In this document: positions 16,818 through 39,064 of the stretch, in pieces | Layout: every line of letters starts with the position of its first letter | Position numbering within the stretch: position 1 is the stretch's first letter | Assembly (NCBI GenBank): GCA_016209015.1 | Contig: JACQWY010000024.1 | Span: 1-61,293 of the forward strand | Direction of reading: 5' to 3' | Length of the DNA stretch: 61,293 nt | Origin: Gammaproteobacteria bacterium | Lineage (GTDB): Bacteria > Pseudomonadota > Gammaproteobacteria > Ga0077536 | Program-made: the position numbers and the translations under genes | Notes under the pieces: generated by a model | What the model saw: the letters and a program-made list of their open reading frames with translations, nothing else | What the model was told of the DNA's origin: nothing | Databases searched by the model: none

Positions 16818-16826
16818 GACGACTGT

Positions 16827-18203
16827 TCAAGTCCCCAGCCGGCGTATCGCCTGCTCCGTCAGGTACTGATCGAAAATCGCCGGATCGTTCACGCGCATGC
16901 CGTAACCGCCGCCGATCTGTTTGACCTGCGCGAGGCGGGTCATGCGATTGCTCTGCACGTCGTGGGCGTGGACGTTGCACCACGACCAGTACGGATGCGT
17001 GCCGTCCATCACCTTCTGGTCGCCCTTCTCGTAGACGGAGTACGTACCGTCGAACGACTTGAACGGTTCGCCGCGACGATCGAAAGTGATCGCGTTGACG
17101 GGCAGCAGGGTGCGGGCATCGAACCATACGCGCTTCTTGCCGACCGGCGCGCGCGGATAACCCGTCGGCTCGCATTCGACCACGATCACTTCGGGAATGA
17201 GCTCCGCGTTCGTGTCCCAGAACGTGAGGCCCTTGCCGCCGCCGTGCGTCTTGCCTTCCCAGTTCTCGTCCTCGGCCGCCCAGTTCTCGGTCAGCCCTGC
17301 GATGAACGGCTGGCGGCCGACGATCTTGTAGTTGCCCCAGGTGAGATAGGGATCACCGGCGGCCCAGGCATCGGAGAGATAGAGCGTCGTGCCGGGAATG
17401 AGCGGCTCGAAGCGCTGGCTCGACGGGAAGCGGCGCACGCGCTTGAACTGGGGCAGATAGCCCATGAGGTCGGGGAACTGCGTCTGGTCGTAGGGCCAGA
17501 TGTTCAGGAACGACGTGCCCTTCGCGTCCTGCGGGTAAGTGAAGAACACGGTGTTGTAGCGCAACTTGTCCTCCGAACCGGGCAGATAGGGCTTCGGATC
17601 GATGGTCGTACGCGCCACCGCGGCGTATTCGACCCACGCGACTTCGTAGGTGTAGCCGAGATTGCCGTCGGCATCGAGCTCGTAGTCGCGCACGGCGTAG
17701 AACGAGACGTCGTGACGCCCCCACGACAACGTGACCGGCACGAACACCTCGACCGCGCTCTGCGGCTTCGGGAAGGGATTGCCGCCGATCCAGGGTTTGC
17801 CCTCTTTCGTGACGACGTTGCCCTTCGCATCGAACTGGGCGAGACCCTGATTGCGCAGCGTCGCCTCGATGTAATCGGGCGGGCTCAGCTTCGTCATCTC
17901 GGTGGTCGTCGGCACGAGCTTGATCTTTCGGCCGAGCTGTTTGATCTGGATGAGACGTATGGGATCGATGAGGTCCGCGACGATGTCGACGTTCGACGCG
18001 TCGATCGTGTCGCCCGGCTTGAGCTTGCCCTTCGTGTACATCTCGATCGAGAGCAGCTCGTCGGGGTAGGCGTTCTCGAAACCGCCGTTGCCTGCCACGG
18101 CGTCCCATACCGTGCCGAACACGCCGGCGGCGAAGATACCCTTCGCGCTCTGCTCGAGGAAGTGCCGCCGAGCGTAGTTGAAATCGTATTTGCGGATTCT
18201 CAT
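16827..18203 (-). CDS. DUF1329 family exported protein
   Basis: The 458-residue protein matches DUF1329: KLKPGDTIDASNVDIVADLI near residues 58-77, then a long beta-rich body with tryptophans (TYEVAWVEYA, FLNIWPYDQTQFPDLMGY). The ATG at 18203 is chosen over one 22 codons upstream because AGGGG stands just before it. The N-terminus (RRHFLEQSAKGIFAAGVFG) is basic then moderately hydrophobic, like a Tat-type signal with RRHF, so export is likely. DUF1329 proteins are LolA/LppX-like periplasmic proteins usually encoded with DUF1302 outer-membrane proteins and RND pumps, as here 5 kb away. It is the last gene of the vWA-TPR-CobW-DUF1329 unit. Ligand unknown, probably a lipid or hydrophobic substrate. 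Confidence 0.85.
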   Translation of the reverse strand: MRIRKYDFNYARRHFLEQSAKGIFAAGVFGTVWDAVAGNGGFENAYPDELLSIEMYTKGKLKPGDTIDASNVDIVADLIDPIRLIQIKQLGRKIKLVPTTTEMTKLSPPDYIEATLRNQGLAQFDAKGNVVTKEGKPWIGGNPFPKPQSAVEVFVPVTLSWGRHDVSFYAVRDYELDADGNLGYTYEVAWVEYAAVARTTIDPKPYLPGSEDKLRYNTVFFTYPQDAKGTSFLNIWPYDQTQFPDLMGYLPQFKRVRRFPSSQRFEPLIPGTTLYLSDAWAAGDPYLTWGNYKIVGRQPFIAGLTENWAAEDENWEGKTHGGGKGLTFWDTNAELIPEVIVVECEPTGYPRAPVGKKRVWFDARTLLPVNAITFDRRGEPFKSFDGTYSVYEKGDQKVMDGTHPYWSWCNVHAHDVQSNRMTRLAQVKQIGGGYGMRVNDPAIFDQYLTEQAIRRLGT

Positions 18204-18259: not shown

Positions 18260-19240
<981 letters not shown>

Positions 19241-19247
19241 GTCGGGA

Positions 19248-21533: not shown

Positions 21534-21541
21534 GACGCGGC

Positions 21542-23450: not shown

Positions 23451-23471
23451 GCCGGCGATTGCCGGCCTTTT
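23442..23471 (-). terminator. Intrinsic terminator of the MMPL-YCF48-DUF1302 unit
   Basis: On the minus strand AAGGCCGGC-AATC-GCCGGCCTT is followed by an eight-T run, 20 bp after the DUF1302 stop. The stem is flanked by four T on the other side, so it could also work in the opposite direction. Confidence 0.9.
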
Positions 23472-23491
23472 CGAAGAGCGCCAGGTCGTGC

Positions 23492-25513
23492 TCAGAAGAA
23501 GAACGCCGCACGGGCGAAGACTTCGTCGCCGCTCGTCTGGTCGATCGTCGCCAGTGTGCTCTGCGTGCCGTTGCCGAGATCTTTCGCGATGTTGGCATAG
23601 ATATCGAACTGCCACTTCGTGCTCGGCTTGTAGCGCACGCCCGGCTGAATGAAGATCGAGCCGGACACGTCGTACAGTACTGCGAAGTCGGCGCGCCAGA
23701 TCAGGTTCGGGAACGGCTGCTGGAACGCGAACGTCACCGCATCGAACATGTCTTGACCTTTCGGACGGCCAGTCGCGCCGGTGATGCCATCCGTGTCGTT
23801 GCCGTCGAGCAGACGGCCGAACATGTCGGATTCCGTCTTGTGCATCCACTCGAACACGAGGTAGGTCGCCGGGGCGTTCGGGAGAATCGACTGATACTTC
23901 TCGAACACCACGGACGCTACGGCCTCGTCACGCTCCGTCGGACGCTGGTCGAGCGTCAGTGAGGTGAACTTCTTGTTCGGCGTGTAGCTCATCTCGCCGC
24001 GGACGATGAGCTGGTCCAGCAGACTGCCGGGCGAGCTCTCGATGATGTAGTTGCCGCCGAAGCCGAAGATCTGCTCACGCTTGAACACACGCTCAATGTA
24101 GCCGCGGAGCGGGCCGAAGCCCCCGAAGAAAGTATTCAGCGTATTGATCGCCAGGCCCTTGTTCCCTTCGAACGGGATGCCGAAGAGCTGCCGGCCGACG
24201 AGCTGCGAGCCCGAGAACTGGTCGAGCGAGGTAGACACGCCTTCGACCGGATTCAGGCGCACTTGACCCGCATAGTGGAACCACTCATCCGCGGAGCTCG
24301 TGCCCGTGACGTCCGGAATGAACGCCGAGCCGCAGGCGCCCGCGAAGTGCAGACCGGCTTGGGCGCTGGCGAGCTGACCGGCGGTCGCCAATGCACGGAA
24401 AGGCGAATTGGCCAGGCAGAACGGGTTCGGCGTGCCGTCCGGGCTCGCGAGCGGCGCATCCTTCCAGCGGACGAAGCCATCCGGATTGATGCGGGACACC
24501 GCCATCGCCTGCAAGGTCAGCTTGTCGGTGATCGGCGCACGCAGCTTGAAGCCGAAGTTCAGTGCATTCTCGGCGTCCTGGAACGTATTGCGATCATCCA
24601 GCGTGAATGCCGCCGGAATCACGTTGTAGGGCGTATTCTCGGCCGGCAGGATGCTCGGATTGAACATCTGGACGAAGCCTTCGAGCTCCCACTCGTTCTT
24701 GAACGTGAAGCTGCCGCGGACGCCCGGCATCGCGATGCGCTTGTCCGAGTACTCCTCGGCGGCGACGTCGAGGAAGGAGTGACGACGCAGGTCGAGACCG
24801 TTCACGACGTCGAACACGCGGAAGAACAGTGCTTCGCCCCAGGCGATCTGCTGCTGGCCGACACGCAGCCACATGCCGCCATGGTGCCAGTCCACGTACG
24901 CCGACGGGAAGTCGAGCATCGCGTTGTCCGTGGTGACTTCCAGCGGATTCAGACGGCCATTGCTGTACCAGCCGCTGTCCTGGGGCTGCTTCGCCAGCTT
25001 GTTGCCGCCGATGCCGTAGAAATTGCCGGCATGCGTCAGGCCGAAGTGATCGCCGACGTTACCATTGCCGAACGGCTCTTCCTCGGCGGTGTAGACGCGG
25101 GTCTGAACATATGCGGAGAATTCGTCGCTGAACTTCGCCTGGATGTCGAGTTCGAGCTTCGTGGCGAACAGATTGAACTGGTTGTTGTCCGTCAGGCCGG
25201 AAGAAGCAGCGGGAACCGCGCCGCAACCGACGCCGATGTTCATTTTGCAGGTACCGCTGTTCGTGATGATCTGCCCGGCATTGCCCGGCGAACCGACACG
25301 CAGCGGCGAAACCATCTTGTTATAGGGGTTCCCGGTCGTATTGAACGTGTTCGTTCCGTCGATCGAGACTCCGATCTCCTGCCGGATGTAACCCGTGACG
25401 TTCAGGTCGACGCCGCCCAGTTGAAAGCTTCCCGCCGACGCAGTCAGCGGTAACAGGACACTGGCGGCCATTCCCCCGGCGACCAGACCTTTAGCGATTT
25501 TGTTAGTGGCCAC
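23492..25513 (-). CDS. DUF1302 family outer-membrane protein
   Basis: The 673-residue protein starts at a GTG with an upstream GAGAGGAG. It has a signal peptide (LVAGGMAASVLLPLTASAG, cleavage near residue 28) followed directly by GSFQLGGVDLNVTGYIRQE, a beta-barrel beginning. The body alternates short polar and aromatic strands (MWLRVGQQQIAWGEALFFRVFDVVNGLDLRRH in pieces near 215-245, the DUF1302 hallmark), and the last residue is phenylalanine, as in Omp85-assembled barrels. DUF1302 proteins are outer-membrane proteins encoded with DUF1329 and RND transporters in bacteria that use hydrophobic compounds. It is the last gene after MMPL and YCF48. A pore or receptor for a hydrophobic substrate is inferred. 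Confidence 0.9.
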   Translation of the reverse strand: MATNKIAKGLVAGGMAASVLLPLTASAGSFQLGGVDLNVTGYIRQEIGVSIDGTNTFNTTGNPYNKMVSPLRVGSPGNAGQIITNSGTCKMNIGVGCGAVPAASSGLTDNNQFNLFATKLELDIQAKFSDEFSAYVQTRVYTAEEEPFGNGNVGDHFGLTHAGNFYGIGGNKLAKQPQDSGWYSNGRLNPLEVTTDNAMLDFPSAYVDWHHGGMWLRVGQQQIAWGEALFFRVFDVVNGLDLRRHSFLDVAAEEYSDKRIAMPGVRGSFTFKNEWELEGFVQMFNPSILPAENTPYNVIPAAFTLDDRNTFQDAENALNFGFKLRAPITDKLTLQAMAVSRINPDGFVRWKDAPLASPDGTPNPFCLANSPFRALATAGQLASAQAGLHFAGACGSAFIPDVTGTSSADEWFHYAGQVRLNPVEGVSTSLDQFSGSQLVGRQLFGIPFEGNKGLAINTLNTFFGGFGPLRGYIERVFKREQIFGFGGNYIIESSPGSLLDQLIVRGEMSYTPNKKFTSLTLDQRPTERDEAVASVVFEKYQSILPNAPATYLVFEWMHKTESDMFGRLLDGNDTDGITGATGRPKGQDMFDAVTFAFQQPFPNLIWRADFAVLYDVSGSIFIQPGVRYKPSTKWQFDIYANIAKDLGNGTQSTLATIDQTSGDEVFARAAFFF

Positions 25514-25806
25514 TCCCGCTCTCCTCTCAGATAAGTATCAGTGTCGAGCAACTATTGATTGGTAGGCGAACTGTAAATCCGGCGTTGGGGGAGACGCTTT
25601 CGACTAGAGACCAGTAGCATCTTTACCACACGCTGGGGAACCCCAGAATTCCCCGAGTATTCAGCCGCCGTCCGCCCCTTTTGGGCATATGCCTAATAAA
25701 CTACAGCACAAAGCGTCAATATTCAACCCGCGCCACGGCTTTGTTGTCTTTGCGCAGCAGCTCGTTGCTTTGCTGCTACGCAACGGAAACGAAGTCGTGT
25801 GACGTA

Positions 25807-26832
25807 TTAACGCAACACCTGCGCAATCATCCCACGCGCGCCACCAATGTAGACGACCTGCGCGTGCACGGGGCCCGCTTCGGTCTTGACCTTGGCCTCG
25901 CCGATGCCGATCGCCTGGTACCAGTTTCGCAGAACCTGGGGGTCGCCCGAATGCGTCCACGTCGCGCCGGCGTCGCTGCTGCGGATGAGCGCACGGATGC
26001 CGGTGATGACGACCTCGCCCTGCTTCGAGACCCATACGCCGAGCAGATTCGCGTCGCCGCCGACGTCGACTTTCTCCCAGGTGTTGCCGTTGTCCACGGT
26101 CTTGATTACGAGACCCTTCTGGCCCACACCGAAGCCGGTGCCATCCTCGAGGACGTGCATCGCGAACAAGGACTCGTCGCTCTTGTGTTTCGAGGTCCAG
26201 GTCTTGCCATCGTCCTCGGAGACGAGCACGAGCCCGAACTCGCCGCCCACCGTGAGACGCCCGCTCTCCTCGACGCGCGCGATGTACATGTGGGGCTGAT
26301 ATCCGCCCTCGGCGAACTTCTCCCAGTCGAGCTCGATGGGGGACCAGCTCTTGCCGCCGTCGTGAGACAGGATGATCGTGCCGAATTCGCCGACCGAGAG
26401 CGCGACGCCCTTCGAATTGACCGAAATGCCCATGAGCCGTGATTCCGTACCCGATTTCGCAGCCTCCCAGCCGCCGCCTTCCTTGCCGAGCAGCACGGTA
26501 CCGCGCTGGCCGACGATGATGCGCTTGTCGCCGAGCATCGCGATGCCGAGCAGCGCGAGATTCGTAGGTGACGAAGTCGCAGCCCACGATGTCCCACCGT
26601 CTTTCGATTCGAGGATCACGCCGAACGCGCCCACCGCGTAGCCCGTGGCGCCTTCGATGGCCATTTCGTAAATCGCGTCGTGCGGAATCCCCGAGCGGAT
26701 GACGCCGATCTGCTGCGGGGCGGCGGGCGCCGCGGCCTCCTCGGCCGGGGCATTGCCCGAGAAAGCGAGCGCGCAGAGCGCCAGGGCGGCCGCCGCGCGG
26801 CCAGTTCTCGATCCGAATCTTGAAGTAGTCAC
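25807..26832 (-). CDS. YCF48/Hcf136-like beta-propeller, exported
   Basis: The 341-residue protein starts at a GTG preceded by AGAGGA and has a signal peptide ending near residue 30 (SGNAPAEE). The mature part is a series of BNR/YCF48-type blades, each with a DGGxxW or similar turn: SKDGGTSWAA, SHDGGKSWSP, EDDGKTWTS, DNGNTWEK, SDAGATWTH. In bacteria such proteins accompany RND/MMPL and DUF1302 genes; in plastids the relative helps assemble photosystem II. It is placed between the MMPL and DUF1302 genes in one operon, consistent with a periplasmic accessory of the transporter. The exact role is unknown. Confidence 0.85.
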   Translation of the reverse strand: MTTSRFGSRTGRAAAALALCALAFSGNAPAEEAAAPAAPQQIGVIRSGIPHDAIYEMAIEGATGYAVGAFGVILESKDGGTSWAATSSPTNLALLGIAMLGDKRIIVGQRGTVLLGKEGGGWEAAKSGTESRLMGISVNSKGVALSVGEFGTIILSHDGGKSWSPIELDWEKFAEGGYQPHMYIARVEESGRLTVGGEFGLVLVSEDDGKTWTSKHKSDESLFAMHVLEDGTGFGVGQKGLVIKTVDNGNTWEKVDVGGDANLLGVWVSKQGEVVITGIRALIRSSDAGATWTHSGDPQVLRNWYQAIGIGEAKVKTEAGPVHAQVVYIGGARGMIAQVLR

Positions 26833-26870
26833 AGTGTCCTCTGAATAGCTTCTCTAAGTTGACGATGCGA

Positions 26871-29276
26871 TCAAGCCTGGGCCGGCTGGCGGTATACGGA
26901 AAGATCGATGCTCTCCACCAGCAGCTGATGCTCCGACGCCAGGAATTTCGGCTTGACCCAATACACGAGCAGGGGCTGCACGACGAGCGCGCAGATCATG
27001 TTGATGGTCATGACCATCACGAGCAAAAGCCCCATGTCCGACAGGAACTTCAGGTCGGACAGGAAGTACCACGGCAGGATGCTGATGAGCACGATCGTCG
27101 CCGTGAAGAAGATCGCTTTGCCTGTCGTCGTCACGGCGCGCTGGATGGCCTCGCCGTGGTGCTGCGCGTCCTGGAACTCTTCCGTCATGCGGCTCATGAG
27201 ATAGATGCCGTAGTCGATCCCGACGCCGATGCCGATGCCGGCGATGGGCAGGCTGTTCACGTCGAGGCCGAGGCCCAGACGCTCCATCGCCGCCGTCAGG
27301 AAGACGTTCGCGAGATTCACGGGAATCAGCAGCAGGATACCGGCGACGAAGGAACGATACGCCGCCGAGCAGCCGAGGAAGATCATGAGATTCAGCAGAC
27401 CGAGGATGTACCACTGGTACTTGTCGACCGTGTCGTTCACCGATTGCTGCAGCGCGATCGCGCCGGTTCCGAGGCGGACCCTGAAGTTCGGGTGATCAGC
27501 GCCCACCGCGGCGATTGCCTCACGCGTCTGCTTGAGCGCGACGTCGACCGTACCCTGCTTGTTGTCCTTGAACCATTGGGAGACGGTGCCGTTCTGCAGC
27601 GTGAAATCCGTGACGTGGCCATACGACTTCGCATTCGTACCCAGGAATAGCGCCGTCACGCCCGCGTTGACCGCCTGATCGGATGGGTCGATCGATCCCC
27701 ATTTCGGATTGCCGCCGCTGAACAGGCGGTTCGCTTCGGGCAGGTAGTCGGCGAACGACAGCGTCGCTGCCGGCGGCTTCGGCGCAGCCTCGAGATGGCG
27801 CTGCAGGCCCTCCATGGTCGCAAGCGTCTCCGCCTCGCGCAGGATGCGTTGATCGCCCTTGCTCTCGAAAACGATCTCGAGCGTCATCAGCCCGGGGAAG
27901 TGGTGATTGATCTCGCGGACCGCAGTATTGAACTCGGACTTGTTGAACAGCAGGTTCGTGCCTTCGACCGGATTACCGATCTTGAGGTGCGCCGCGAACC
28001 AGAAGCCCGTCACCGACAGCACGATGACGACGACGGTCGTCACGCGCGCACGCGGGCCGTGCGACCAGCTCGCGATGACGTGCAGCATGGCGATGATCGA
28101 GTCGTGCCAGGTCTTTTCGGTGCCCTTGCCGATGAGCGTCGCGACGTTGCCCGGCGGTTTGAAATACGACACCAGCAGCGGCGAGAGGAATACGTCCGTC
28201 GGGATGAGGTTCATGGCCCAGAAGCCGCAGAAGACCGCGAAGCGCTCCATCACCGGGATCGGTGCGACCGCGATGAGGAACAGGCACGCACAGTCCGTGA
28301 AAATGCCGAGAATTCCGGGCGCCATCATGACGCCTAATGCGAGCTCGGCCGCTTTGTGGCGATCGTTGATCTCGTAGTAGATCTCGTAGAAGCGCTCCAT
28401 GAACTGCACGCAGTGCGAGAACGCGCGAGCCACGAGCAGCATAGGAACCACCATGATCAGCGGTTCGATGGGCTGGTGCATCCATCCGACCAGGCCGAAG
28501 CCCCAGACGACGCCGACTGCGCTGACGATGATCGGCGTGACCACGCCAGGGACGTTGCGCATGTAGAAGAGCAGAGAGAGGAGGAGTGCGAGGCCGGTGA
28601 TGCCGAAAATCACCAGCATCTGCTTTTCGTACGTATACACCCAGCCCGTGAGTACGGGCTGGCCGGCGACGTGCACCTCGTGATTCGCGTCGCGCTCTTT
28701 CTCGACGAGGTTCTGCACGTAACGGAACGTCTCGCCGTAATTGAGCGTGCGTTCGATGAACGTAGCCTGCAGCAGGGTCGCCGTCTCGTCGCCGGAAATG
28801 AGGAAGGTCCGCACGTTCGCGGCCTTGTCCACGCGGCTCTTGAACTCGGCGATTTCCTCCGGCGTCTCCGGCGATTTCGCGTCGATGAGCGGTTTCATGT
28901 CGACACCGAAAGGCGTCGCCTCCGCGTAGCGCGCCTTCTCCGTCGTGATCGAGAGAATCTGATCGTGGTCGACGGCCGGCGCGAGGTCGATCTCGCGCGT
29001 CATGCGCCAGACCTTCGCGAGCGTCTCCTTGTTATAGATGTCCCCGTGCTTGTTCTTGATGAGGATGACCACCGTCAGCGGATTGCCGAAGTTCGGATGG
29101 TCCTTATACGTCTGCACGAAAGGATGCGTCTTCGGGAAGAGATCCGAGAAGATCGTCCGCAGGTCCACATGACGCAGGCCGATTGCGAAGAAAATTGTCC
29201 AGGCTCCGAGAAATAGCAGCGAAAAGCCGCGATGCTTCATCACCCATTGGGCGATGCGGAAACGAAATCCTTGCAT
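26871..29276 (-). CDS. RND superfamily (MMPL-type) transporter
   Basis: The 801-residue inner-membrane protein has the RND layout: a first membrane span near residues 15-32, a large periplasmic loop to about 215, a bundle of spans at about 220-420, a second periplasmic loop, and a final bundle from about 620. The GIGVGIDYGIYLMSRM motif at about 682-696 holds the Asp of the proton relay. Length and the two-fold repeat fit MMPL/HpnN-like exporters of lipids rather than AcrB-like drug pumps, and no fusion protein or TolC gene is nearby. It is the first gene of the MMPL-YCF48-DUF1302 unit behind a strong promoter. Substrate inferred as lipid-like or hydrophobic. Confidence 0.9.
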   Translation of the reverse strand: MQGFRFRIAQWVMKHRGFSLLFLGAWTIFFAIGLRHVDLRTIFSDLFPKTHPFVQTYKDHPNFGNPLTVVILIKNKHGDIYNKETLAKVWRMTREIDLAPAVDHDQILSITTEKARYAEATPFGVDMKPLIDAKSPETPEEIAEFKSRVDKAANVRTFLISGDETATLLQATFIERTLNYGETFRYVQNLVEKERDANHEVHVAGQPVLTGWVYTYEKQMLVIFGITGLALLLSLLFYMRNVPGVVTPIIVSAVGVVWGFGLVGWMHQPIEPLIMVVPMLLVARAFSHCVQFMERFYEIYYEINDRHKAAELALGVMMAPGILGIFTDCACLFLIAVAPIPVMERFAVFCGFWAMNLIPTDVFLSPLLVSYFKPPGNVATLIGKGTEKTWHDSIIAMLHVIASWSHGPRARVTTVVVIVLSVTGFWFAAHLKIGNPVEGTNLLFNKSEFNTAVREINHHFPGLMTLEIVFESKGDQRILREAETLATMEGLQRHLEAAPKPPAATLSFADYLPEANRLFSGGNPKWGSIDPSDQAVNAGVTALFLGTNAKSYGHVTDFTLQNGTVSQWFKDNKQGTVDVALKQTREAIAAVGADHPNFRVRLGTGAIALQQSVNDTVDKYQWYILGLLNLMIFLGCSAAYRSFVAGILLLIPVNLANVFLTAAMERLGLGLDVNSLPIAGIGIGVGIDYGIYLMSRMTEEFQDAQHHGEAIQRAVTTTGKAIFFTATIVLISILPWYFLSDLKFLSDMGLLLVMVMTINMICALVVQPLLVYWVKPKFLASEHQLLVESIDLSVYRQPAQA

Positions 29277-30843: not shown

Positions 30844-31503
30844 GTGAAACAGCAGTCCCCATCAATTCCGGACGGCGCGCCCGCGCACCGCCGCGCAGCG
30901 GAAATCTGGCTCCTGCTCGAGGAAATCATCCTGAGTGGCGGGTTCGCGCGCCTGAGCGTGGGCGAGCTCGCCGAGCGATTGTCGTGCTCCAAGCGCACGC
31001 TCTACGAGCTCGCGCCGAGCAAGAACGAGCTCGTACTGAAAGTCATCGCGGAATTCTTCGCGCGCATCCGTCGCGAAGCGGCAGGCGCGGTCGCGGCCTC
31101 GGACGATCCGGCAGATCAGATATTCGTTTATCTGCAGGCCGGCGTGCGCGCGGCGCAGCGCTTGAGTCAGACGACGATCGTCGACATCAACGGCTGGGAA
31201 CCGGCACGGCGGATCTGGCAGGAGCACATCCGGCTGCGCGTCGACGGACTGTGCGAGCTGATCGAGCGCGGCATCAAGCTCGGCGTGTTCCGCCGCATCA
31301 ATCCGAAGCTCGTGGCCGAGCTCGCGTTCGCGAGCATCAGCCGACTGCGCGAGCCGGATTTCTACCTGAGCACGAACATTCCCGCTTCGGAAGCATTCCA
31401 GGAGTACTACCGGATGCTGCTGAGCTCGCTGCTAGACGAGAGCGCGGCGCACCTGCGCCACGCTGCGGCACCACGGCGGCGCGGCCGCCGCAGCACCGTC
31501 TGA
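30844..31503 (+). CDS. TetR/AcrR family transcriptional regulator
   Basis: The 219-residue protein (GTG start) has the N-terminal TetR DNA-binding domain at about residues 18-65: a helix with EIWLLLEEIILSGGF, then LSVGELAERLSCSKRTLYEL as the helix-turn-helix. The C-terminal ligand domain is helical and ends in a basic RRRGRRS tail. It is divergent from the hydrolase and converges, with a 19-bp gap, on the last gene of the Apc-like carboxylase operon. It is the only conventional one-component repressor in the catabolic part of the window, so it is the first candidate to control the hydrolase, the carboxylase operon or the envelope genes. Confidence 0.85.
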   Translation: MKQQSPSIPDGAPAHRRAAEIWLLLEEIILSGGFARLSVGELAERLSCSKRTLYELAPSKNELVLKVIAEFFARIRREAAGAVAASDDPADQIFVYLQAGVRAAQRLSQTTIVDINGWEPARRIWQEHIRLRVDGLCELIERGIKLGVFRRINPKLVAELAFASISRLREPDFYLSTNIPASEAFQEYYRMLLSSLLDESAAHLRHAAAPRRRGRRSTV

Positions 31504-31522: not shown

Positions 31523-32362
31523 TCAGCCGAGCAGAGCTTTCACGCGATCGAGCACGAGCTCCGGCTGTGCGGTCTCCGGCACGGCGCCGTAGAGCACGCC
31601 TCCCGGCGGTGGCGCCGGCGCTGCGGCTGCCGTCCAGTAGGTGCCCGGCAATCCCCCACCGCAGCGCACGCCGGAATCCGCGATCGCCGCGAGCGCGGCG
31701 GACTCGAGCTCCGGGTAGAGCAGCACGTCGACGTCGAGACCGTCGATGGCGCCCGTCGCGGGCGCCGCAGCCGTCTGCGCGAGCGCCGTGACCCAGCGAT
31801 AGTGCTGGGCCGAGCCGACGAGCGTCGCATACGCATCCGCTTCGTCCGCCGAGACCGGCTCCGCGGCCGCACGCTTCAGCAGCAACGCGGCGATCGGTTT
31901 CTCGGAGAACGAGCGCACGAGATCCGACAGCGCCATCGTGACGTCGTCGAGCGCGTCGAACCCGGGCTCCGACATGCCGCACGCCGCGAGCAGATCCCGC
32001 GGCGAGGTCAGCGCGAGCACGAGATCGAGCTCCTGCGCGAACTTGTGCGCGAGCGCGTCCAGCACTTCGGCCGTAAAGGCACGCCCATGTGCGTCTGCGA
32101 GCGCCGCACGTACGCGTTCCACTGCATCGCCCTCGTCACCCGCCGCGAGCAGCGCCCGCACCGGCGCAAGCACGTCGACGCTCAGGACTTCGGTACGGAT
32201 CACGCTCCGCGCCTGGCCGAGCGTGTTCGCGCAGCGCGTCGCCTGCTTCAGCCAGTCCGCCGGATTGCCGGCGAACACCCGTCGCGCATAGTCGTCGAAC
32301 TCGATCCACAACACGCGATCACGCCGGCCGTCGAGCCAGGATCGCAGAACATTCGCCGCCAT
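31523..32362 (-). CDS. Probable fifth subunit of an acetophenone carboxylase-type enzyme (Apc5-like)
   Basis: The 279-residue soluble, alanine-rich protein (about 29 kDa) has no motif I can name. It is placed last in a five-gene unit whose first four products are carboxylase subunits, 39 bp after the fourth. Acetophenone carboxylase of Aromatoleum has subunits of 70, 15, 87, 75 and 34 kDa in gene order; here the products are roughly 68, 14, 77, 82 and 29 kDa. Position and size therefore suggest the loosely bound fifth subunit. The sequence itself does not prove it: an IEFDDYARRVFAGNP N-terminus and a mid-region LALTSPRDLLAACG are the most conserved-looking parts. Confidence 0.5.
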   Translation of the reverse strand: MAANVLRSWLDGRRDRVLWIEFDDYARRVFAGNPADWLKQATRCANTLGQARSVIRTEVLSVDVLAPVRALLAAGDEGDAVERVRAALADAHGRAFTAEVLDALAHKFAQELDLVLALTSPRDLLAACGMSEPGFDALDDVTMALSDLVRSFSEKPIAALLLKRAAAEPVSADEADAYATLVGSAQHYRWVTALAQTAAAPATGAIDGLDVDVLLYPELESAALAAIADSGVRCGGGLPGTYWTAAAAPAPPPGGVLYGAVPETAQPELVLDRVKALLG

Positions 32363-32401
32363 TTCAGGTCCCCGTCGCGCTTGAACGGCGCTCAGGATAG
32401 C

Positions 32402-34633
32402 TCAAGAGCGGCCCTTGATGGCAGCGAGCTCCGCTTCGAGCTCGGCAATGCGCACGTCCTTCGGATTCGGCATCATCACCGGCACGATGGCGTCGGCCGG
32501 GCAGGTGTCGTCCGGCGAGCCGCGGTAGAGCAGCGACTTGTCCTTCCATGAACCGTAGAACGGCACGTCGCGCGGCGGCTCCGGCGTCTCCCAGCTCTTC
32601 ACGAATTCCTTGTACGGCTTGCCACGGTGCTTGCGCATTTCGCGCTCGGCGTCGCGCGCTTTCTGCGTTGCTTCGTGGTCGACCGCGCCCGTCTTCTCGT
32701 CGAGGACGACATGGTAGACATTCTGGACGCTGCGCATCGAGAGCAGACCGTCGAGGAGGTCCTTCGCGACGAGCGTCGGATCGCGCTCCAGCACGTCGCC
32801 GTAACCCCCACCGCCGCCCTGGGTGATCATGTAGAGTTCACCGGGCTTGGCGAACTCGAGCTGCAGCCCCATGTGATGGGTGCTGTAGGTCGCGCCCGGG
32901 AACGGGCGTTCGTTCATGATCTCTTCGATGGAGTAGCGCAGCAGCTCGCGCTTGTCCCTCATCACCTCGAAGACGTTCACGCCCTTCACCTTGCAGAGCG
33001 GCAGCGTGCCGGGCGCATAGCCACCGAAGATGCCGTAGGTCGTCGGGAACTTCGAGCCGATCGAGCAGCACATGAAGCCCCACATCGAGGAGTCCTTCAT
33101 GGTGGCGATCTGCTGGTAGCCATGGCCGCCGCGGAACTTGCCGAAGCCTTCGGCGTCGCGCATGAGCTTGTGCGGCACGACCTTCAGCAGCGGCACCTCC
33201 TCTTCGATCAGCTCCTGCTCGCCGATGTCGGCCATCGGCGCGAAGATCGGCGCTATAGAATGTTCGCCGTCGCGGTTCGAGCGTGCCGCGCCGCCCATGC
33301 CGTTCAGATCCGCGCAGACGTTGCCGACGAGCTCGCCGTACTGGTTCACGCCGCCGTAGATGAACGTGACGATCATGTTGTACCAGCCGGCGATGATGTC
33401 CGTGCAGTGCTTTTCGGAAGCGCTGTAGATGAACTTCGGCACGCCGATCTGGATCGCGGTGAAGCCCGGGAAGAACGTCATCATGCTCTGGGCGTTCGGG
33501 GCATCGGGCGAGCAGTTCAGCGTCGAGCGCTTGTCCGTCAGCACCGTCATCGGCGCGAACACCGCCTGGTTACGCGGCAGATCCGGCCACACGAAGCTCA
33601 GGAACTCCTGCGCGAGCATGCCCTTCAGCGAAGCGAGCACCGTGTTGTTGGGACGGTTGAGGAACTCCGGAGACGAGCCGCGGAAATCGATGATCAGCTC
33701 GTCGTTCTTCTTCTCGAGCTCGAGGCGGATGCGGATGAGGCAGTTCTCGCGCAGCGTGCCGTCGGCGAAGACGTTCGTGCGGACCTTGCCGTCGGGCCAG
33801 GTCGACAGACGCCGGCGCACTTCGATTTCGGTGTCCGTGAGCGTCTTGCGCAGCGTGGCGATGACGGCTTCGACGCCGTACTCCGCGATCGCGTCCTCGA
33901 CGCGTGCTTTCATGCGCATCGCGGCGAAGAACTTCGATTTCATGCCTTCGAGCTGGAGCTTGGGCTCGCGCACGGAGTTCTGCAGGAAGGTCATGATGTC
34001 GCGCTTGAACTCGTAGTTCTCGCCCACCTTGATCGGCGACATCTTGAGCCCTTCGTCGAACGGCGATTCGGCCGCAGAGGGCATGCCGCCCGGCTCGATC
34101 GCGCCGTTCTCGCCCTCGTGCACGATTGCACCGGTGAAGCAGATCAGCTCACCGTTATGGAACACCGGGAGCAGCAGACTCTGGTCGGTGTTGTGGATGT
34201 TGCCGTAGCGCGCGTCGTTGTGCATGAAGATGTCGCCATCCTTGAGCCCAACGGTCGGATCGTCCTTCCAGTATTTCAGGATGAACTTCACCGGATGCTG
34301 CGTCAGCACCGAGAAGATGAGCACGCCGCCCATCGAGGCGAGCGCGAGATCGCCGTTCGCCGTCCAGACGCCCGAGATGAGATCGCCCCACTTCGCGCCC
34401 GGCGCCGCCCCCATCTGCTCGACCATGTCGAACGATTCGTTGCACGCCGTCTGCAGCTTGTGGCGGACGAGGTTGATCTGATCCGGGTCGGCGAAGCTCT
34501 TCAGCGCTTCGGCTTCGCGCGGCGTCGTCGGGACGACGCGATGGTCCTCCATGATCTCCGGATCGGGGCCGAGGAAGAGCACGTTCTCTTCCAGGAATTT
34601 CTCGATGATGGACTTTTCTTGGTCACCGCCCAT
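32402..34633 (-). CDS. HyuB-like catalytic subunit of an acetone/acetophenone carboxylase-type enzyme
   Basis: At 743 residues this is longer than the hydantoinase B-like protein at 8951-10747 and fits the acetone carboxylase alpha / acetophenone carboxylase large-subunit group. The conserved FMHNDARYGNIHNTDQ segment lies near residues 135-150, followed by HNGELICFTGAIVHEGENG near 158-176 and a GGMPSAAE stretch. RGSSPEFLNRP lies near 318, and a glycine-rich GGGGGYGDVLERDP near 606-619 is followed by the typical VLDEKTGAVDHEAT tail. The C-terminus ends in a short predicted coil (IAELEAELAAIKG). It is the fourth gene in the operon, with its start 27 bp after the stop of the second HyuA-like gene. 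Confidence 0.85.
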   Translation of the reverse strand: MGGDQEKSIIEKFLEENVLFLGPDPEIMEDHRVVPTTPREAEALKSFADPDQINLVRHKLQTACNESFDMVEQMGAAPGAKWGDLISGVWTANGDLALASMGGVLIFSVLTQHPVKFILKYWKDDPTVGLKDGDIFMHNDARYGNIHNTDQSLLLPVFHNGELICFTGAIVHEGENGAIEPGGMPSAAESPFDEGLKMSPIKVGENYEFKRDIMTFLQNSVREPKLQLEGMKSKFFAAMRMKARVEDAIAEYGVEAVIATLRKTLTDTEIEVRRRLSTWPDGKVRTNVFADGTLRENCLIRIRLELEKKNDELIIDFRGSSPEFLNRPNNTVLASLKGMLAQEFLSFVWPDLPRNQAVFAPMTVLTDKRSTLNCSPDAPNAQSMMTFFPGFTAIQIGVPKFIYSASEKHCTDIIAGWYNMIVTFIYGGVNQYGELVGNVCADLNGMGGAARSNRDGEHSIAPIFAPMADIGEQELIEEEVPLLKVVPHKLMRDAEGFGKFRGGHGYQQIATMKDSSMWGFMCCSIGSKFPTTYGIFGGYAPGTLPLCKVKGVNVFEVMRDKRELLRYSIEEIMNERPFPGATYSTHHMGLQLEFAKPGELYMITQGGGGGYGDVLERDPTLVAKDLLDGLLSMRSVQNVYHVVLDEKTGAVDHEATQKARDAEREMRKHRGKPYKEFVKSWETPEPPRDVPFYGSWKDKSLLYRGSPDDTCPADAIVPVMMPNPKDVRIAELEAELAAIKGRS

Positions 34634-34660
34634 GGCCGTTACCTCTTTGATCTTTCCGCT

Positions 34661-36784
34661 TTAGTCTTTGACCACCCATGCCGCACCGGAGCTGCCCATC
34701 GTGAGGGTCCAGCCCGGTTCGACGAGGTAGGTCGTGCGTGGCGTTTCGATGAGCGCGGGACCCGCGACGCGCATGCCCTCGGCCACCGCTTCGCCGTCGT
34801 AGACCGCAGTCATCATCGGCTCGGCGGCTTCGGGGAAATGGCATTCGCGCTGCGTGCGCGGCACCGGTTTCGCGTCGTCGCTCTTCGTAGAGCGCGTGAG
34901 TTCGAGCTTCTGGTGCTCGACATAGGAGACGACGCGGATCACGTTGATGCGCACGCCCGCTTCCGGCGCCTGGCTGCCCTCGCCGAAGCGCTGGGCGTAG
35001 TTGACGCTGAAGAGATCGAGGATCGTGATGATGTCCTGCATCGACGAGAGCCGGCTCAACGGGCAGGCGACGCCGATCTGCGCGAGCTGATTACCGTAGC
35101 GCATGTCGAGCTCGACGCGCGATTTGATGGCCTCCGGCGCGGCGCCCTGCCGCAGGAGATCCTCGCGGCCGCGCTGCTCGAGCTCGACGACGGTCTCGTT
35201 GAAGACGTCGAACTCCTCCAGCATCTTGCGCTTCGTGGCGTCGTAGAGCATGAGATAGAGCGACTTTTCGTGAATGTGGAGCTGGCTCATGTTGCCGGCG
35301 CCCAGCGCCGAGAACACGGAGCTGAACGGCGGCACGAGGACTTTCGTGATGCCGATGCGCGAGGCGTAACCGCACGCGTGGATCGGGCCGCCGCCGCCGT
35401 AGCTGAGGATGACGAAGTGCTTCGGGTTGTAACCCTTGACCGCGACTTCCTTGAAGATCGCCGCCGCCATGTTCGCATCGACCTTGCGCTTGATGGCTTT
35501 CGCCGCATCGATGAGTGACATGCCGGAGGGCTTGCAGATGAATTCCTCGATGGCGCGTTCGGCGCGGCGCTTGTTGATCTTGATCGTGCCGCCGGCGTAG
35601 TTGTGCTCGTCGAGGTAGCCCAGCACGAGGTTCGCGTCCGTCGTCGTCGGCACCTTGCCGCCGCGGCCGTAACAGGCCGGTCCCGGGTCGGAGCCCGCGG
35701 AATCGGGGCCGACTTCGACCGCTTCCCACAGCCGATCGTAACGCGCGATGGAACCGCCGCCCGCACCGAGCGTGTGGAGGTAGGTCATCGGCGTCGAGAC
35801 GAGCCAGCGATCGATGACGGGATTGAAGTCGTAGAACTTCACGCCGTCGGAGGTCACCAGGCCGATGTCGAAGCTCGTGCCGCCCATGTCGGTCGCGATG
35901 ATGTTCGGCTCGCTGAACTTCTCGGAGATGTAGTTCGAGGCCTCGAGACCGGCGACCGGGCCCGAGTGGATCGTCTGCAGCGAGTGCGTGGAGTTGAGCT
36001 GTGCCATGCCGCCGGTGTTGTGCACGAGCAGCATCGGGCGCTTGTAGCCGTTCTGCCGCAGCACGACTTCGAGCGTCGACATGCCGTGATACATCTGATC
36101 GTGCAGATAGGCGTCGAGCACCGCGGACATCGTGCGCGAATACTCCGCTTTGCGGCCCGCGACGCGATGCGAGAGCACGATCGGGATCGCGCCGAGCACG
36201 TGCGTCGGATACTCGCCGAGGATGATGCGCTCGACCTCCTTCTCGTGCTCGGGATTGACGACCGCGTTGATGAGCGCGACCACGAAAGCCTGCGCGCCCT
36301 GGTCGACGAGCTTGCGGACCTGCTTGCGCACGTCGTCGCCCTCGACTTCGAGCACCGAAGTGCCTTTGTAGTCGATGCGTTCCTGGATGCCGACGATCAT
36401 CGTCATCGGCACGAGCGGCACGGGACGATCCGCACCCGGGAGATCCGTCTGCTCGGTGGCGGAGAGGCCGTCGCCGTAGCCGCGCGCGCGCATCAGCGGA
36501 ACCGAGGACTCGTAGCCGGCGGTCGTGATGATGCCGACGCGCGGGCCCTTGCGCTGGATCAGCGCGTTCGTGCCGAGCGTCGTCGCATAGCGCACGGCGT
36601 CGACGCTCGAGAGCACTTCGCCGATGTCCTTGCCGATTTCGGCACAGGCCTTCTGCAGGGCGTCCATGAAGCCCGAGGCCAGATTGTGATGAGTGGTGAG
36701 TGCCTTTGCTTCGACGTATTTGTCGTCGAAGGCCAGGAAGCAGTCCGTGAACGTGCCTCCGATGTCTACGCTAACCCGCCGCAT
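34661..36784 (-). CDS. HyuA-like ATPase subunit (second copy) of the Apc-type carboxylase
   Basis: The 707-residue protein has the HyuA ATPase architecture: VDIGGTFTDCFL at about residues 5-16, ATTLGTNALIQRKG near 69-82, TDMGGTSFDIGLV near 295-307 and GAGGGSIARYDRLWEAV near 341-357. The C-terminal part carries a typical EPGWTLTMG strand near the end. Its start overlaps the end of the small zinc-ribbon gene by 14 bp, a sign of translational coupling. Together with the first HyuA-like subunit it would supply the alpha/alpha-prime pair seen in acetophenone carboxylase, where two related ATPase subunits work in one complex. Confidence 0.85.
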   Translation of the reverse strand: MRRVSVDIGGTFTDCFLAFDDKYVEAKALTTHHNLASGFMDALQKACAEIGKDIGEVLSSVDAVRYATTLGTNALIQRKGPRVGIITTAGYESSVPLMRARGYGDGLSATEQTDLPGADRPVPLVPMTMIVGIQERIDYKGTSVLEVEGDDVRKQVRKLVDQGAQAFVVALINAVVNPEHEKEVERIILGEYPTHVLGAIPIVLSHRVAGRKAEYSRTMSAVLDAYLHDQMYHGMSTLEVVLRQNGYKRPMLLVHNTGGMAQLNSTHSLQTIHSGPVAGLEASNYISEKFSEPNIIATDMGGTSFDIGLVTSDGVKFYDFNPVIDRWLVSTPMTYLHTLGAGGGSIARYDRLWEAVEVGPDSAGSDPGPACYGRGGKVPTTTDANLVLGYLDEHNYAGGTIKINKRRAERAIEEFICKPSGMSLIDAAKAIKRKVDANMAAAIFKEVAVKGYNPKHFVILSYGGGGPIHACGYASRIGITKVLVPPFSSVFSALGAGNMSQLHIHEKSLYLMLYDATKRKMLEEFDVFNETVVELEQRGREDLLRQGAAPEAIKSRVELDMRYGNQLAQIGVACPLSRLSSMQDIITILDLFSVNYAQRFGEGSQAPEAGVRINVIRVVSYVEHQKLELTRSTKSDDAKPVPRTQRECHFPEAAEPMMTAVYDGEAVAEGMRVAGPALIETPRTTYLVEPGWTLTMGSSGAAWVVKD

Positions 36785-37139
36785 TCGCTTTCCCCTCGAT
36801 CCTGGCCTGTCGTTCTTTGAGTTTGTCGATGTCGAGCTCGATGTCGTTCGTCAACGGATGACCCGGCGGCAGATATTCGTTCTCGATCAGCGTGCCGCAA
36901 TCCGGGCAGTAGAACTCGATGATCCGGCACCACTTGGGATCCGGGGCGTAGGTGTACGGATAGCTGTCGTCGAGGATCGGCCGATGGATTTCGCGCGGAT
37001 CGCGATCGTGCACGAGCAGGCCCTCCTTGTAGGGCGAGCGCGCCGGTCCGATGTCGTGGTTGCAGCGCCGGCAGTGCCAGCGCTCGGTGCCCAGATCGAT
37101 CTCCAGGTATTCCGTGATTGCTATGCGTTTGTCGCTCAT
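36771..37139 (-). CDS. Acetone carboxylase gamma-like zinc-ribbon subunit
   Basis: The 122-residue protein has two CxxC pairs, WHCRRCNHDIG at about 23-33 and FYCPDCGTLIENEY near 80-93, separated by a segment LLVHDRDPREIHRPI that matches the acetone carboxylase gamma subunit pattern (vHvRDpxxi, then ReYyCPeCGTL). Gamma subunits bind zinc and hold the carboxylase complex together. Its ATG overlaps the stop of the upstream HyuA-like gene (TAATG) and its end overlaps the next gene by 14 bp. This small subunit separates true ketone carboxylases from plain hydantoinases or oxoprolinases and is the main evidence for the function of this operon. Confidence 0.85.
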   Translation of the reverse strand: MSDKRIAITEYLEIDLGTERWHCRRCNHDIGPARSPYKEGLLVHDRDPREIHRPILDDSYPYTYAPDPKWCRIIEFYCPDCGTLIENEYLPPGHPLTNDIELDIDKLKERQARIEGKANAAG

Positions 37140-39064
37140 TACTTGTTCACCTCGAGCACCACGTCGTGGTTGCTGGTCACCGCGAGGCGCCACCCGGCCG
37201 CCACGAGGCACGTGAGATAGTCGCCTTTGATCAGGCACGGCCCGGCCAGGGCGTGGCCCGGTTGCAGATCCTTGTCGTGCACGACGGGCACGCTCACCGG
37301 CTTGCCCGCCGCGAGGCGGATTTCCGTCTGACCCGCCGTCGGCGCGGCGCTCGCCTGCTCGTTGCCCGGCGCTACGAGTGCCGAGGACGGCAGCTCGTGC
37401 ACGGCTTTCAGCGTGAGACGTGCATTGGCGTCGGCCGGCACTTTGCCGTCCACGAGCGGGGATTCCTGCACTTTGCCGTCCACGGCACGCCACAGCGAAT
37501 AGTCGTAACGGCAGGACGCGGGATCCACGCCTTCACCGTACATGTCGCGGCGCGCGCGGACTTCGAGCTCGGCCTTCACCGCCGCGAGCGCGGCCCCGGC
37601 AGCGTCGGCGGCCGGCACCTGGTATTCGTGGGCGAGATGGCTGAAACCGATGCCGAAGGCGCTGAACACCGCCGCGAAGCGCGGCACGATGACGCGCGGC
37701 ATGCCAATCGCACCGGCGATGCCGGCCGCGATCATCGGACCGCCGCCGCCGAACGCGACGAGCGTCGCCTGCTTCGGATCGCGCCCCGCCTGTTTGATGA
37801 CCGCCGCGAGATGCGCGCCGACCTCTTCCTGGAACGCGGCGATGATCGCGCTCGCGGCTTCCTGCGCGTTCTTGCCGATGTGCTCGCCGACCTGCGTCTT
37901 GACCGCCTGCAACGCACGTTCGACGTCGAGCTTGAGCTCGCCGCCGAGATACTGCTCGCCATCGAGCACGCCCGCGATGAGCAGCGCGTCGGTCAGCGTC
38001 GCGTTCGTGCCGCCGCGGCCGAAGCAGGCCGGTCCAGGGGCTGCGCCGACGGATTCGGGGCCGATCACGATCTTCCCGTCCGCGACCCTCACGATCGAGC
38101 TGCCGCCGAGACCGAAGCTCTGCAACTCCGGCAGCGGGAAGGAGGTTTGCAGCTCATCGACTTCGCCGTACGCATTCTGCGGCACGGACTTGCCCTTGAC
38201 GACGGAGACGTCGGTGGTCGTGCCGCCGATGTCCATCGCGACGAGCGTGTCGTCGCCGTAGAGCTTCGCATAGGCGAGTGTGCCCTCGAGGCCGCCGCGC
38301 GGACCCGAGCCCCAGGTCTTGATCGCGGTGGTCTTCGCGACGCGGGCGGAATCGCCGTCGTTGCGGAAGATCAGCAGCGGACGCTTGAGGTGGTGGATCT
38401 TGCAGATGTTCTCCGCGCTGTAGAGGAAGTGCTCCATGCCCGGATGCAGATAGGAGTTCACGACCGAGGTCGCGGTGCGGCGCGCGTGATCCGTGTCCTG
38501 CACGAGCTCGGTCGAAATCAGGAACGGGATTGCACCGAGCAGATGGCGCGGGTAGCGATCGAGCAGCGCTTCCTTGACGTTCTGCTCCGCCTGCGCCGAC
38601 TTGAGCGTCACGACGAGGCGCTGCGCACCGACTGACAGCAACTGGTTGATGATGCGCGTGAGCTCGTGGCCGTCGATCGCGCCGTCGGCACCGACCTTGA
38701 TGCCGCTCGGACGCTCCGGAACCATCGCCTTCCACAGATCGCTCGAGCCGAAGCGCGCGATCGCGCCGTAGACCGTCTCCTCGTCACCCGCCTCGACGAG
38801 CAGCGCGACGGGCGTGCCCTTGTGCTCGACGACGGCGTTCGTGCCGGAGGTGGTGGAGTAGCGCAGGCATTCCGTTTCGCGGATGAGTCGGGCGAGATCC
38901 TCTTCGCCGTACAGGTCGCGCGACCCGCGCTTCAGTGCTTCCATGAAACACTGTGTCAGGTCGTGCGGCGTGGTGATGGCCTTGGCGTGGACGACTTTGC
39001 CGCCACTGCTGATGCAGACGTCGGTGAACGTGCCGCCGTTGTCGATGTTGACCAGGAATCCCAT
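37139..39064 (-). CDS. HyuA-like ATPase subunit (first copy) of the Apc-type carboxylase
   Basis: The 641-residue protein (about 68 kDa) is a HyuA-type ATPase that opens the operon. Motifs: NIDNGGTFTDVC near residues 6-17, where N replaces the usual valine or isoleucine, STTSGTNAVVEHKG near 71-84, MDIGGTTTDVSVV near 279-291, and LGGSSIVRVADGK near 319-331 in place of the longer GAGGGS loop. The ATG at 39064 is chosen for its GGGGAGGT ribosome site; the frame is open for 81 further codons upstream without family sequence. A shorter, more divergent paralogue of the second HyuA-like subunit fits the two-ATPase design of acetophenone carboxylase. Confidence 0.85.
   Translation of the reverse strand: MGFLVNIDNGGTFTDVCISSGGKVVHAKAITTPHDLTQCFMEALKRGSRDLYGEEDLARLIRETECLRYSTTSGTNAVVEHKGTPVALLVEAGDEETVYGAIARFGSSDLWKAMVPERPSGIKVGADGAIDGHELTRIINQLLSVGAQRLVVTLKSAQAEQNVKEALLDRYPRHLLGAIPFLISTELVQDTDHARRTATSVVNSYLHPGMEHFLYSAENICKIHHLKRPLLIFRNDGDSARVAKTTAIKTWGSGPRGGLEGTLAYAKLYGDDTLVAMDIGGTTTDVSVVKGKSVPQNAYGEVDELQTSFPLPELQSFGLGGSSIVRVADGKIVIGPESVGAAPGPACFGRGGTNATLTDALLIAGVLDGEQYLGGELKLDVERALQAVKTQVGEHIGKNAQEAASAIIAAFQEEVGAHLAAVIKQAGRDPKQATLVAFGGGGPMIAAGIAGAIGMPRVIVPRFAAVFSAFGIGFSHLAHEYQVPAADAAGAALAAVKAELEVRARRDMYGEGVDPASCRYDYSLWRAVDGKVQESPLVDGKVPADANARLTLKAVHELPSSALVAPGNEQASAAPTAGQTEIRLAAGKPVSVPVVHDKDLQPGHALAGPCLIKGDYLTCLVAAGWRLAVTSNHDVVLEVNK

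Follow-up and report, generated by a model that had tools for sequence, protein, structure and literature searches.

A five-gene acetophenone carboxylase-like operon likely encoding a two-kinase ketone carboxylase in a gammaproteobacterial genome

Operons of the acetophenone carboxylase (Apc)-like type, in which the genes for the alpha', gamma, alpha and beta subunits follow one another in that order, with or without a gene for epsilon, were described in 2017, and as of that year a single enzyme of the Apc branch had been biochemically characterised (PMC5214803). Apc is described as highly specific for acetophenone (PMC4729919), and its subunits are given as 70, 15, 80, 75 and 32 kDa in the introduction of the Apc paper, with 34 kDa for epsilon in the abstract. 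The acetone carboxylase AcxABC (5m45, 5svb) has one ATPase subunit, a gamma that is longer (5m45_C, 168 aa) and the gene order alpha-beta-gamma, while hydantoinase, oxoprolinase and caprolactamase (6yra, 7hk5, CapAB) are hydrolases lacking gamma, alpha' and epsilon.

Analysis of the window, a stretch of 61,293 nucleotides from a gammaproteobacterial genome, revealed an operon that in our judgement is likely to encode an ATP-dependent, biotin-independent carboxylase with two kinases (alpha alpha' beta gamma epsilon), the substrate being a ketone other than acetophenone and plausibly a hydrophobic one. Apc-like five-gene clusters have already been described; what is new is the subclade, its pocket and the battery of carboxylases in the genome.

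Operon layout and core subunits

The operon comprises five genes on the same strand, between positions 39064 and 31523, in the order of apcABCDE:

37139..39064, minus strand, alpha' (ApcA-like, 641 aa), second ASKHA-type ATPase, proposed bicarbonate kinase (NCBIfam ApcA, 5l9w_b, ATP motifs, tree)
36771..37139, minus strand, gamma (ApcB-like, 122 aa), zinc-ribbon subunit (PF08882, 5l9w_C, four cysteines)
34661..36784, minus strand, alpha (ApcC-like, 707 aa), first ASKHA-type ATPase, proposed ketone kinase (NCBIfam ApcC, 5l9w_B, pocket, tree)
32402..34633, minus strand, beta (ApcD-like, 743 aa), frame subunit with metal site (NCBIfam ApcD, 5l9w_A)
31523..32362, minus strand, epsilon (ApcE-like by fold, 279 aa), URO-D-like barrel (AlphaFold2, Foldseek, VIA)

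The genes for alpha' and gamma overlap by 1 nt and those for gamma and alpha by 14 nt, gaps of 27 nt and 39 nt separate alpha from beta and beta from epsilon, and the calculated masses are 67.3, 14.2, 76.9, 82.6 and 29.2 kDa (alpha', gamma, alpha, beta, epsilon). Gene calls and Pfam bear out the original prediction of a five-gene unit at 31523-39064 encoding HyuA-like, gamma-type, HyuA-like, HyuB-like and fifth proteins, the computed geometry gives the same two overlaps and the 27-bp and 39-bp gaps, and the estimated sizes of about 68, 14, 77, 82 and 29 kDa were close to those calculated. The sizes it gave for known Apc (70, 15, 87, 75 and 34 kDa) were slightly off, as 70, 15, 75 and the abstract's 34 are those of the paper but 87 stands for 80, and the introduction has 32 for epsilon.

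Hydantoinase_A domains were detected by Pfam in both large ATPases, Hydantoinase_B in beta and Acetone_carb_G (PF08882, E 4.6e-38) in gamma. In NCBIfam and PDB sequence searches the top match of each of the four core proteins was its own Apc counterpart, the best chains being 5l9w_b for alpha', 5l9w_B for alpha and 5l9w_A for beta, with gamma matching 5l9w_C at E 2.7e-37; the 122-aa protein is thus a gamma-type subunit, as had been proposed from its zinc ribbon. None of the equivalog cut-offs for acetophenone carboxylase (ApcA-ApcE) was reached: the core scores amount to 23-61% of them (bits/cut-off: alpha' against ApcA 359/1250, gamma 152/250, alpha against ApcC 569/1500, beta against ApcD 348/1500), and epsilon had no match.

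The ATP motifs D8NGGT, D278IGGT and GAAPGP are kept in alpha', gamma is of the short Apc kind with C23, C26, C78 and C81 at the places of the four zinc ligands, and beta keeps the D84/H147/D150/H172 metal site in the alignment to 5l9w_A. The fingerprint of alpha reads QERIDYKG, against an expected R/KERiDsxG. The operon has in common with the Apc of Aromatoleum aromaticum (5l9w core, 9fou ApcE) the five-gene order, the best matches of the core, the ATP motifs, the cysteines that bind zinc in gamma, the metal residues of beta and the epsilon fold, but differs from it in the alpha pocket, in two of the three named polar residues of the alpha' bicarbonate pocket (E248 replaced by G, K281 by D), in the length of beta (743 aa against 684 aa in Apc), in an epsilon that is not recognisable as ApcE by sequence, and in belonging to a separate subclade.

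Phylogenetic position and distribution

In the tree, which has 92 rows, draws on 29 of the 80 loci and carries SH-aLRT support only and a long-branch warning, alpha' and alpha of the window fall in two Apc-context clades (support 100 for alpha', 99 for alpha), separate from the hydantoinase and acetone-carboxylase types, and the 14 hydantoinase-type proteins of the same genome form a clade of their own (support 99). The two ASKHA ATPases are thus of the alpha' and alpha lineages, and the pair does not group with the hydantoinase-type rows. Both outcomes named beforehand as overturning the carboxylase reading, a missing gamma-family match of the 122-aa protein and a grouping of the two HyuA-like proteins with oxoprolinases or hydantoinases, were looked for and did not occur. 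AcxABC shares gamma, HyuA/HyuB homologues and the places of the metal ligands with the window and lies apart on the tree; its single ATPase and alpha-beta-gamma order are not those of the operon, nor is the two-gene arrangement without gamma of hydantoinases and oxoprolinases, which share the HyuA/HyuB core. On Pfam content and the tree we reject both a plain hydantoinase and an acetone carboxylase, the former having already been excluded in the original prediction, with which the gamma subunit, the paired ATPases and the tree agree. Its suggestion of a new clade holds for an uncharacterised subclade, though not for the four-/five-gene Apc-like type as such, already described in 2017 (PMC5214803).

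A scan of genome contigs with a gamma alignment yielded 316 confirmed stretches, of which the best 80 were taken as loci; these related loci are not independent of one another, and their genes were called by our own script, which missed gamma in L068, L115 and L116. The order alpha'-gamma-alpha-beta was found in 66 of these 80 loci from other genomes (64 contiguous, two interrupted by one gene), a recurrence that makes the arrangement more than chance, and epsilon was found in 50 of 55 testable loci. The ten nearest gamma matches comprise seven from Gammaproteobacteria, two titled Klebsiella pneumoniae and one from a proteobacterium, judged by record titles, which fits the likely gammaproteobacterial origin in the original prediction.

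Gene neighbourhood, alpha pocket and candidate substrates

In related loci the operon order is often accompanied by genes for a CoA ligase, thiolase, dehydrogenase or CobW protein, as judged from context labels that are phmmer best matches (E up to 1e-10). The genes of interest around the operon in the window are:

30844..31503, plus strand, TetR-type regulator, convergent with epsilon across a 19-nt gap (relatives in 7/80 loci)
26871..29168, minus strand, MMPL/RND transporter (relatives in 13/80 loci, including L049 and L051-L055 just past epsilon)
25807..26832, minus strand, YCF48/BNR-repeat protein
23492..25471, minus strand, DUF1302 protein
18260..19240, minus strand, CobW-type GTPase (relatives directly after epsilon in L059, L061, L063, L064 and L065)
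16827..18203, minus strand, DUF1329 protein
15455..16693, plus strand, thiolase-fold protein, possible beta-ketoacyl-CoA cleavage, outside the operon
13112..15094, minus strand, acetoacetate--CoA ligase, outside the operon (TIGR01217, 804.6 bits, cut-off 520.9)

A same-strand downstream CoA ligase is present in 30 of the 55 testable loci, accompanied by a thiolase in L063 and L065; in the window both enzymes are encoded 16-18 kb away from the operon. A PQQ dehydrogenase (39868-41586), considered as a conserved alcohol-oxidising partner, was rejected, having one weak relative (92 bits) in one of 80 loci. Among the matches listed in a literature search for CobW or metallochaperones together with ketone carboxylases, none was on both by title.

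Acetone, butanone or another short-chain ketone would suit the acetoacetate--CoA ligase of the window and its relatives, which follow the carboxylase in 20 of the 55 testable loci; these belong, however, to the sister subclade, and the ligases adjacent to the carboxylase in the window's own subclade (L063, L064, L065, L086, L111) represent a different AMP-binding type. As four loci of the genome are already in acetone-carboxylase order and the DUF1302, DUF1329, YCF48 and MMPL neighbourhood suggests a hydrophobic compound, we regard a short-chain substrate as unlikely.

That the operon encodes acetophenone carboxylase, or an isozyme acting on the same compound, could be argued from the shared gene order and the Apc subunits as top matches, but is quite improbable given the described specificity of Apc and a second locus, L030. 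This operon of the same genome is near-canonical, its core proteins scoring 1097.9/1250, 234/250, 1495.9/1500 and 1454.8/1500 on the four Apc models; it has an ApcE match of 267 bits, and L F N P I Q T in its alpha pocket are the residues of Apc (L81, F281, N282, P285, I333, Q344, T345). The window alpha has T I H P I Y L at these places, a set shared by all eight subclade members checked; P and I are kept and five of the seven positions differ, although this seven-residue pocket is not a published membership rule. With L030 in the same genome, scores far below the models and a different pocket, the operon is probably not acetophenone carboxylase itself.

That the operon encodes a hydrolase with additional subunits that uses ATP to open a lactam, a hydantoin or some other cyclic amide is scarcely credible, since the HyuA/HyuB domains and the match of alpha to caprolactamase alpha (442 bits, second in NCBIfam to ApcC) are set against hydantoinases without gamma and alpha' (PMC5214803), the separate clade of the genome's own hydantoinase-type proteins and CoA ligase and thiolase partners that match a beta-keto acid product.

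A hydrophobic ketone fits the gene context and is a plausible candidate substrate. The host genome is unusually rich in ketone-carboxylase-type enzymes, with 14 gamma-type domains, six of them in double-ATPase operons; gamma counts from scans that scored part of the candidates are lower bounds.

The fifth subunit and a proposed reaction

The epsilon sequence had no match in Pfam, NCBIfam (including ApcE) or PDB searches. Its AlphaFold2 model (pLDDT 94.4) found the solved ApcE 9fou as best Foldseek match (E 3.6e-8), followed by uroporphyrinogen decarboxylase (URO-D), and the fifth subunit of the Apc type is therefore represented by predicted fold; the Apc5 comparison proposed earlier for the 279-aa protein thus came out as an ApcE/URO-D-like fold, though without a direct sequence match. 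By VIA Z and TM-score the model agrees with URO-D structures at least as closely as with 9fou (VIA Z 22.6 for URO-D, 20.0 for 9fou_B). URO-D and MtaA/CmuA-type methyltransferases resemble epsilon in the barrel fold (273-279 residues aligned at a VIA Z of about 22), with an identity of 8-12% in the VIA matches. A literature search joining acetophenone carboxylase with uroporphyrinogen decarboxylase found nothing, and none of the papers since 2018 holding 'acetophenone carboxylase' was on ApcE structure, judged by titles.

We infer the reaction, assembly, role of epsilon, site of C-C bond formation and substrate class from these comparisons. Alpha would phosphorylate the enol of the ketone and alpha' bicarbonate, each with its own ATP, on a frame formed by beta and the zinc subunit gamma, in which the D-H-D-H site of beta lies where acetone carboxylase has Mn. 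The epsilon barrel would dock and help to connect the two sites, bringing CO2 together with the enol phosphate. A CoA ligase would then activate the beta-keto acid product for cleavage by a thiolase, a fate with which the recurrent partners fit. More tentatively, and on balance doubtfully, the operon may represent a separate double-kinase subfamily for hydrophobic or terpenoid-like ketones, with T-I-H-P-I-Y-L as signature, a metal loaded by CobW and a chamber closed by epsilon, in a host whose roughly 14 carboxylases would differ in substrate.

The pocket signature, confident epsilon fold and recurrent CoA-ligase and CobW partners of this uncharacterised subclade, together with six comparable double-ATPase operons in one genome, one of them near-canonical Apc, open both the choice of substrate and the function of epsilon to experiment, and CO2-adding enzymes for inert ketones are also of interest to biocatalysis.

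Of 85 candidates searched with the epsilon profile, 58 came out as members, 55 of which were taken into the family profile A3 (L030, L114 and L123 left out); A3 had no PDB match up to E 10, and a direct ApcE sequence match was found in just eight of the 55 relatives. The epsilon-like gene of L032, missed by the epsilon profile, matches the ApcE model at E 8.9e-9. The candidate second epsilon of Solimonas-type loci proved to be a short-chain dehydrogenase (by Pfam in L067, by phmmer label in the other loci), and the family member of L104 matches methyltransferase models.

Organization of the operon and its core subunits

The five-gene operon of acetophenone carboxylase (Apc) type in the original prediction was borne out in its gene positions, all on the minus strand at 31523-39064:

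37139-39064, minus strand, alpha', 67.3 kDa calculated
36771-37139, minus strand, gamma, 14.2 kDa calculated
34661-36784, minus strand, alpha, 76.9 kDa calculated
32402-34633, minus strand, beta, 82.6 kDa calculated
31523-32362, minus strand, epsilon, 29.2 kDa calculated

The first two gene junctions overlap (by 1 and 14 nt) and the other two leave spacers of only 27 and 39 nt, which suggests a single transcription unit. The alpha' start at 39064 sits within a longer open frame and is supported by the ApcA alignment, which starts at alpha' residue 3.

The top NCBIfam models were ApcA for alpha' (359 bits vs. an equivalog cut-off of 1250), ApcB for gamma (152 vs. 250), ApcC for alpha (569 vs. 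1500) and ApcD for beta (348 vs. 1500), all four scores being far under the cut-offs, and the top PDB match of each core subunit was its own 5l9w chain. Both ATPases (alpha' and alpha) keep the ASKHA motifs, gamma keeps its four zinc cysteines, and the alpha interface fingerprint QERIDYKG is near, not identical, to R/KERiDsxG. Residues D84, H147, D150 and H172 of beta align with D65, H123, D126 and H148 of Apc beta and with the Mn ligands E89, H150, D153 and H175 of acetone carboxylase (PMC5214803, PMC5543143). For the zinc site of Apc, the authors of PMC5214803 preferred gamma over beta, so a catalytic metal in the beta subunit of Apc-type enzymes is what we ourselves infer.

Since every part is present, the two-kinase scheme proposed for Apc (enol phosphate on alpha, carboxyphosphate on alpha', epsilon as a helper bridging both sites; PMC5214803) was transferred to the window operon, in which alpha would make the enol phosphate, alpha' would make carboxyphosphate and epsilon would help to bridge their sites; as acetone carboxylase does, this enzyme may also make use of its conserved metal site in beta. 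Apc-like clusters of four or five genes, the fifth being highly divergent, were described in 2017 (PMC5214803), and the operon type itself was therefore already known; new, within a limited literature search, are the subclade and the pocket signature that marks it, the predicted epsilon fold and how large the genome's set of putative carboxylases is.

The fifth subunit

Window epsilon gave no sequence match in Pfam, NCBIfam or PDB searches. Many beta-neighbouring genes in the fetched carboxylase loci are related to it; of 85 candidates, 58 were recruited by iterating a profile. The AlphaFold2 model built from 55 of these sequences (mean pLDDT 94.4) has eight strands in alternation with helices. 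Foldseek against the PDB placed three chains of 9fou first ('Acetophenone carboxylase subunit epsilon ApcE', released 2025-12-24; best E 3.6e-8), followed by uroporphyrinogen decarboxylases (URO-D), whereas VIA-align placed URO-D at the top (Z up to 22.6), with 9fou_B at rank 24 (Z 20.0, 266 residues, rmsd 3.5) and methionine synthases further down (Z 16.7 and below); the predicted fold is thus clear, and ApcE is not the nearest structure by every measure. The NCBIfam ApcE model matched eight of the 55 aligned members, Pfam URO-D two, and the epsilon of L030, another operon of the same genome, matched the ApcE model with 267 bits. Window epsilon is therefore ApcE-like by predicted fold, position near beta and family linkage, without a direct sequence match.

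Phylogeny, substrate and gene neighbourhood

The HyuA-type tree had 92 rows (two from the window operon, 32 others from its genome and 58 from 29 of the 80 best gamma-matching loci of other genomes); it was made by a quick method and carried a long-branch warning, the window rows not being among the long branches. It resolved four clades: the 35 alpha' rows without exception (support 100), the 35 alpha rows of Apc context, likewise complete (99), the 14 hydantoinase-type rows (99) and the seven acetone-carboxylase-like rows (100). Window alpha' and alpha fell into matching subclades with L049, L053, L056, L059, L062-L065, L072, L075 and L086, apart from the side with L030, L066, L078, L104 and L120.

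L030 (own-genome C11) scored slightly under or close to the Apc cut-offs (ApcA 1097.9/1250, ApcB 234/250, ApcC 1495.9/1500, ApcD 1454.8/1500). At the seven alpha pocket positions named in PMC5214803, ApcC and L030 have L F N P I Q T, the window and all eight other subclade members checked T I H P I Y L, and all nine sister-subclade members checked T V/I H P I H L. In alpha', Apc E248 and K281 are kept in L030, whereas the window has G and D; the remaining rows checked have D at the K281 position. The window operon is probably not an acetophenone carboxylase, as L030 has the near-cut-off scores and the Apc pocket and the window pocket differs.

Among the 55 testable loci (those of 66 four-gene loci with at least 2.5 kb past beta), epsilon was present in 50 and missing in five, and a same-strand CoA ligase lay downstream in 30 (acetoacetate–CoA ligase in 20, another in 10). 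Short-chain dehydrogenases were found in 19, MalT-LuxR regulators in 16, DUF1329 in 14, thiolases and MMPL each in 13 and CobW in 11; L063 and L065 each have a same-strand run made up of epsilon, CobW, ligase and thiolase genes. This neighbourhood plainly parallels the ethylbenzene degradation pathway of alcohol dehydrogenase, Apc, benzoylacetate–CoA ligase and thiolase (PMC4729919).

Within the window's genome, CobW lay near three of six Apc-type operons (window, L030, L033) and near none of eight acetone-carboxylase-like or fused loci and none of 13 hydantoinase loci, a small sample in which the window stretch exceeds all others in length and has its CobW 12 kb from epsilon. CobW may load a metal. 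The window at 13112-29168 also contains acetoacetate–CoA ligase, thiolase, DUF1329, DUF1302, YCF48 (a family we take to correspond to COG4447) and an MMPL transporter. Because the last four resemble the AmeABCD set described for Castellaniella monoterpene metabolism (DUF1302, DUF1329, a COG4447 protein and an RND transporter; PMC6394551), they speak for a hydrophobic substrate, with no specific compound indicated.

L109 (Hydrocarboniphaga effusa) has alpha'-gamma-alpha-beta followed by short-chain dehydrogenase, acetoacetate–CoA ligase and CobW, epsilon not being found within the fetched stretch. A hydantoinase-type pair at 8951-12802 of the window (region 7192-15094) has an acetoacetate–CoA ligase upstream and an enoyl-CoA hydratase downstream, the latter with gamma-carboxygeranoyl-CoA hydratase as best model, under its cut-off; the gamma-alpha-beta locus L091 contains relatives of both. 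A tryptophan-halogenase-family flavoprotein gene (L053:5182-6720) is divergent to alpha'; at the corresponding position, genes of similar size lie on the minus strand in L051, L052, L054 and L055. The records with L052 and L057, which contain the operon, are titled as Klebsiella pneumoniae MAGs, probably wrongly.

Putative carboxylase battery of the genome, and its relatives

Across the 5.7-Mb genome, PF01968 matches 36 times, with 34 of these reaching E 1e-40 or lower, and PF08882 matches 14 times. By gene order, six of the PF08882 loci are alpha', gamma, alpha, beta operons, one of which (L032) has a fifth, epsilon-like gene between gamma and alpha; four are alpha-beta-gamma, three beta-gamma-alpha and one a beta with a C-terminal gamma-like domain. 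PF08882 was found in 33 of 35 other genomes of the same family, with at most seven copies, and in none of 22 genomes of other families surveyed alongside. With E limited to 1e-20, a class-wide draw of 369 genomes gave at least seven with the domain and a phylum-wide draw of 398 at least nine; both numbers include the own genome, which had the highest count in each draw among the part of candidates scored. The HyuA expansion itself is shared, genome G016 of the family having 35, and 14 of the 36 genomes of the family, own included, carry an epsilon of the window type.

At L038:8719-13130 (own-genome C65), a 760-aa HyuB with a C-terminal gamma-like domain and paired cysteines kept adjoins a HyuA gene whose product stands by itself on the tree; beta and gamma are fused in this architecture. 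Many genomes of the family likewise have frames of about 750-800 aa in which PF08882 matches weakly. L034, L035 and L036 (own-genome C44, C46 and C42), of beta-gamma-alpha order, are sister to the alpha-beta-gamma locus L041.
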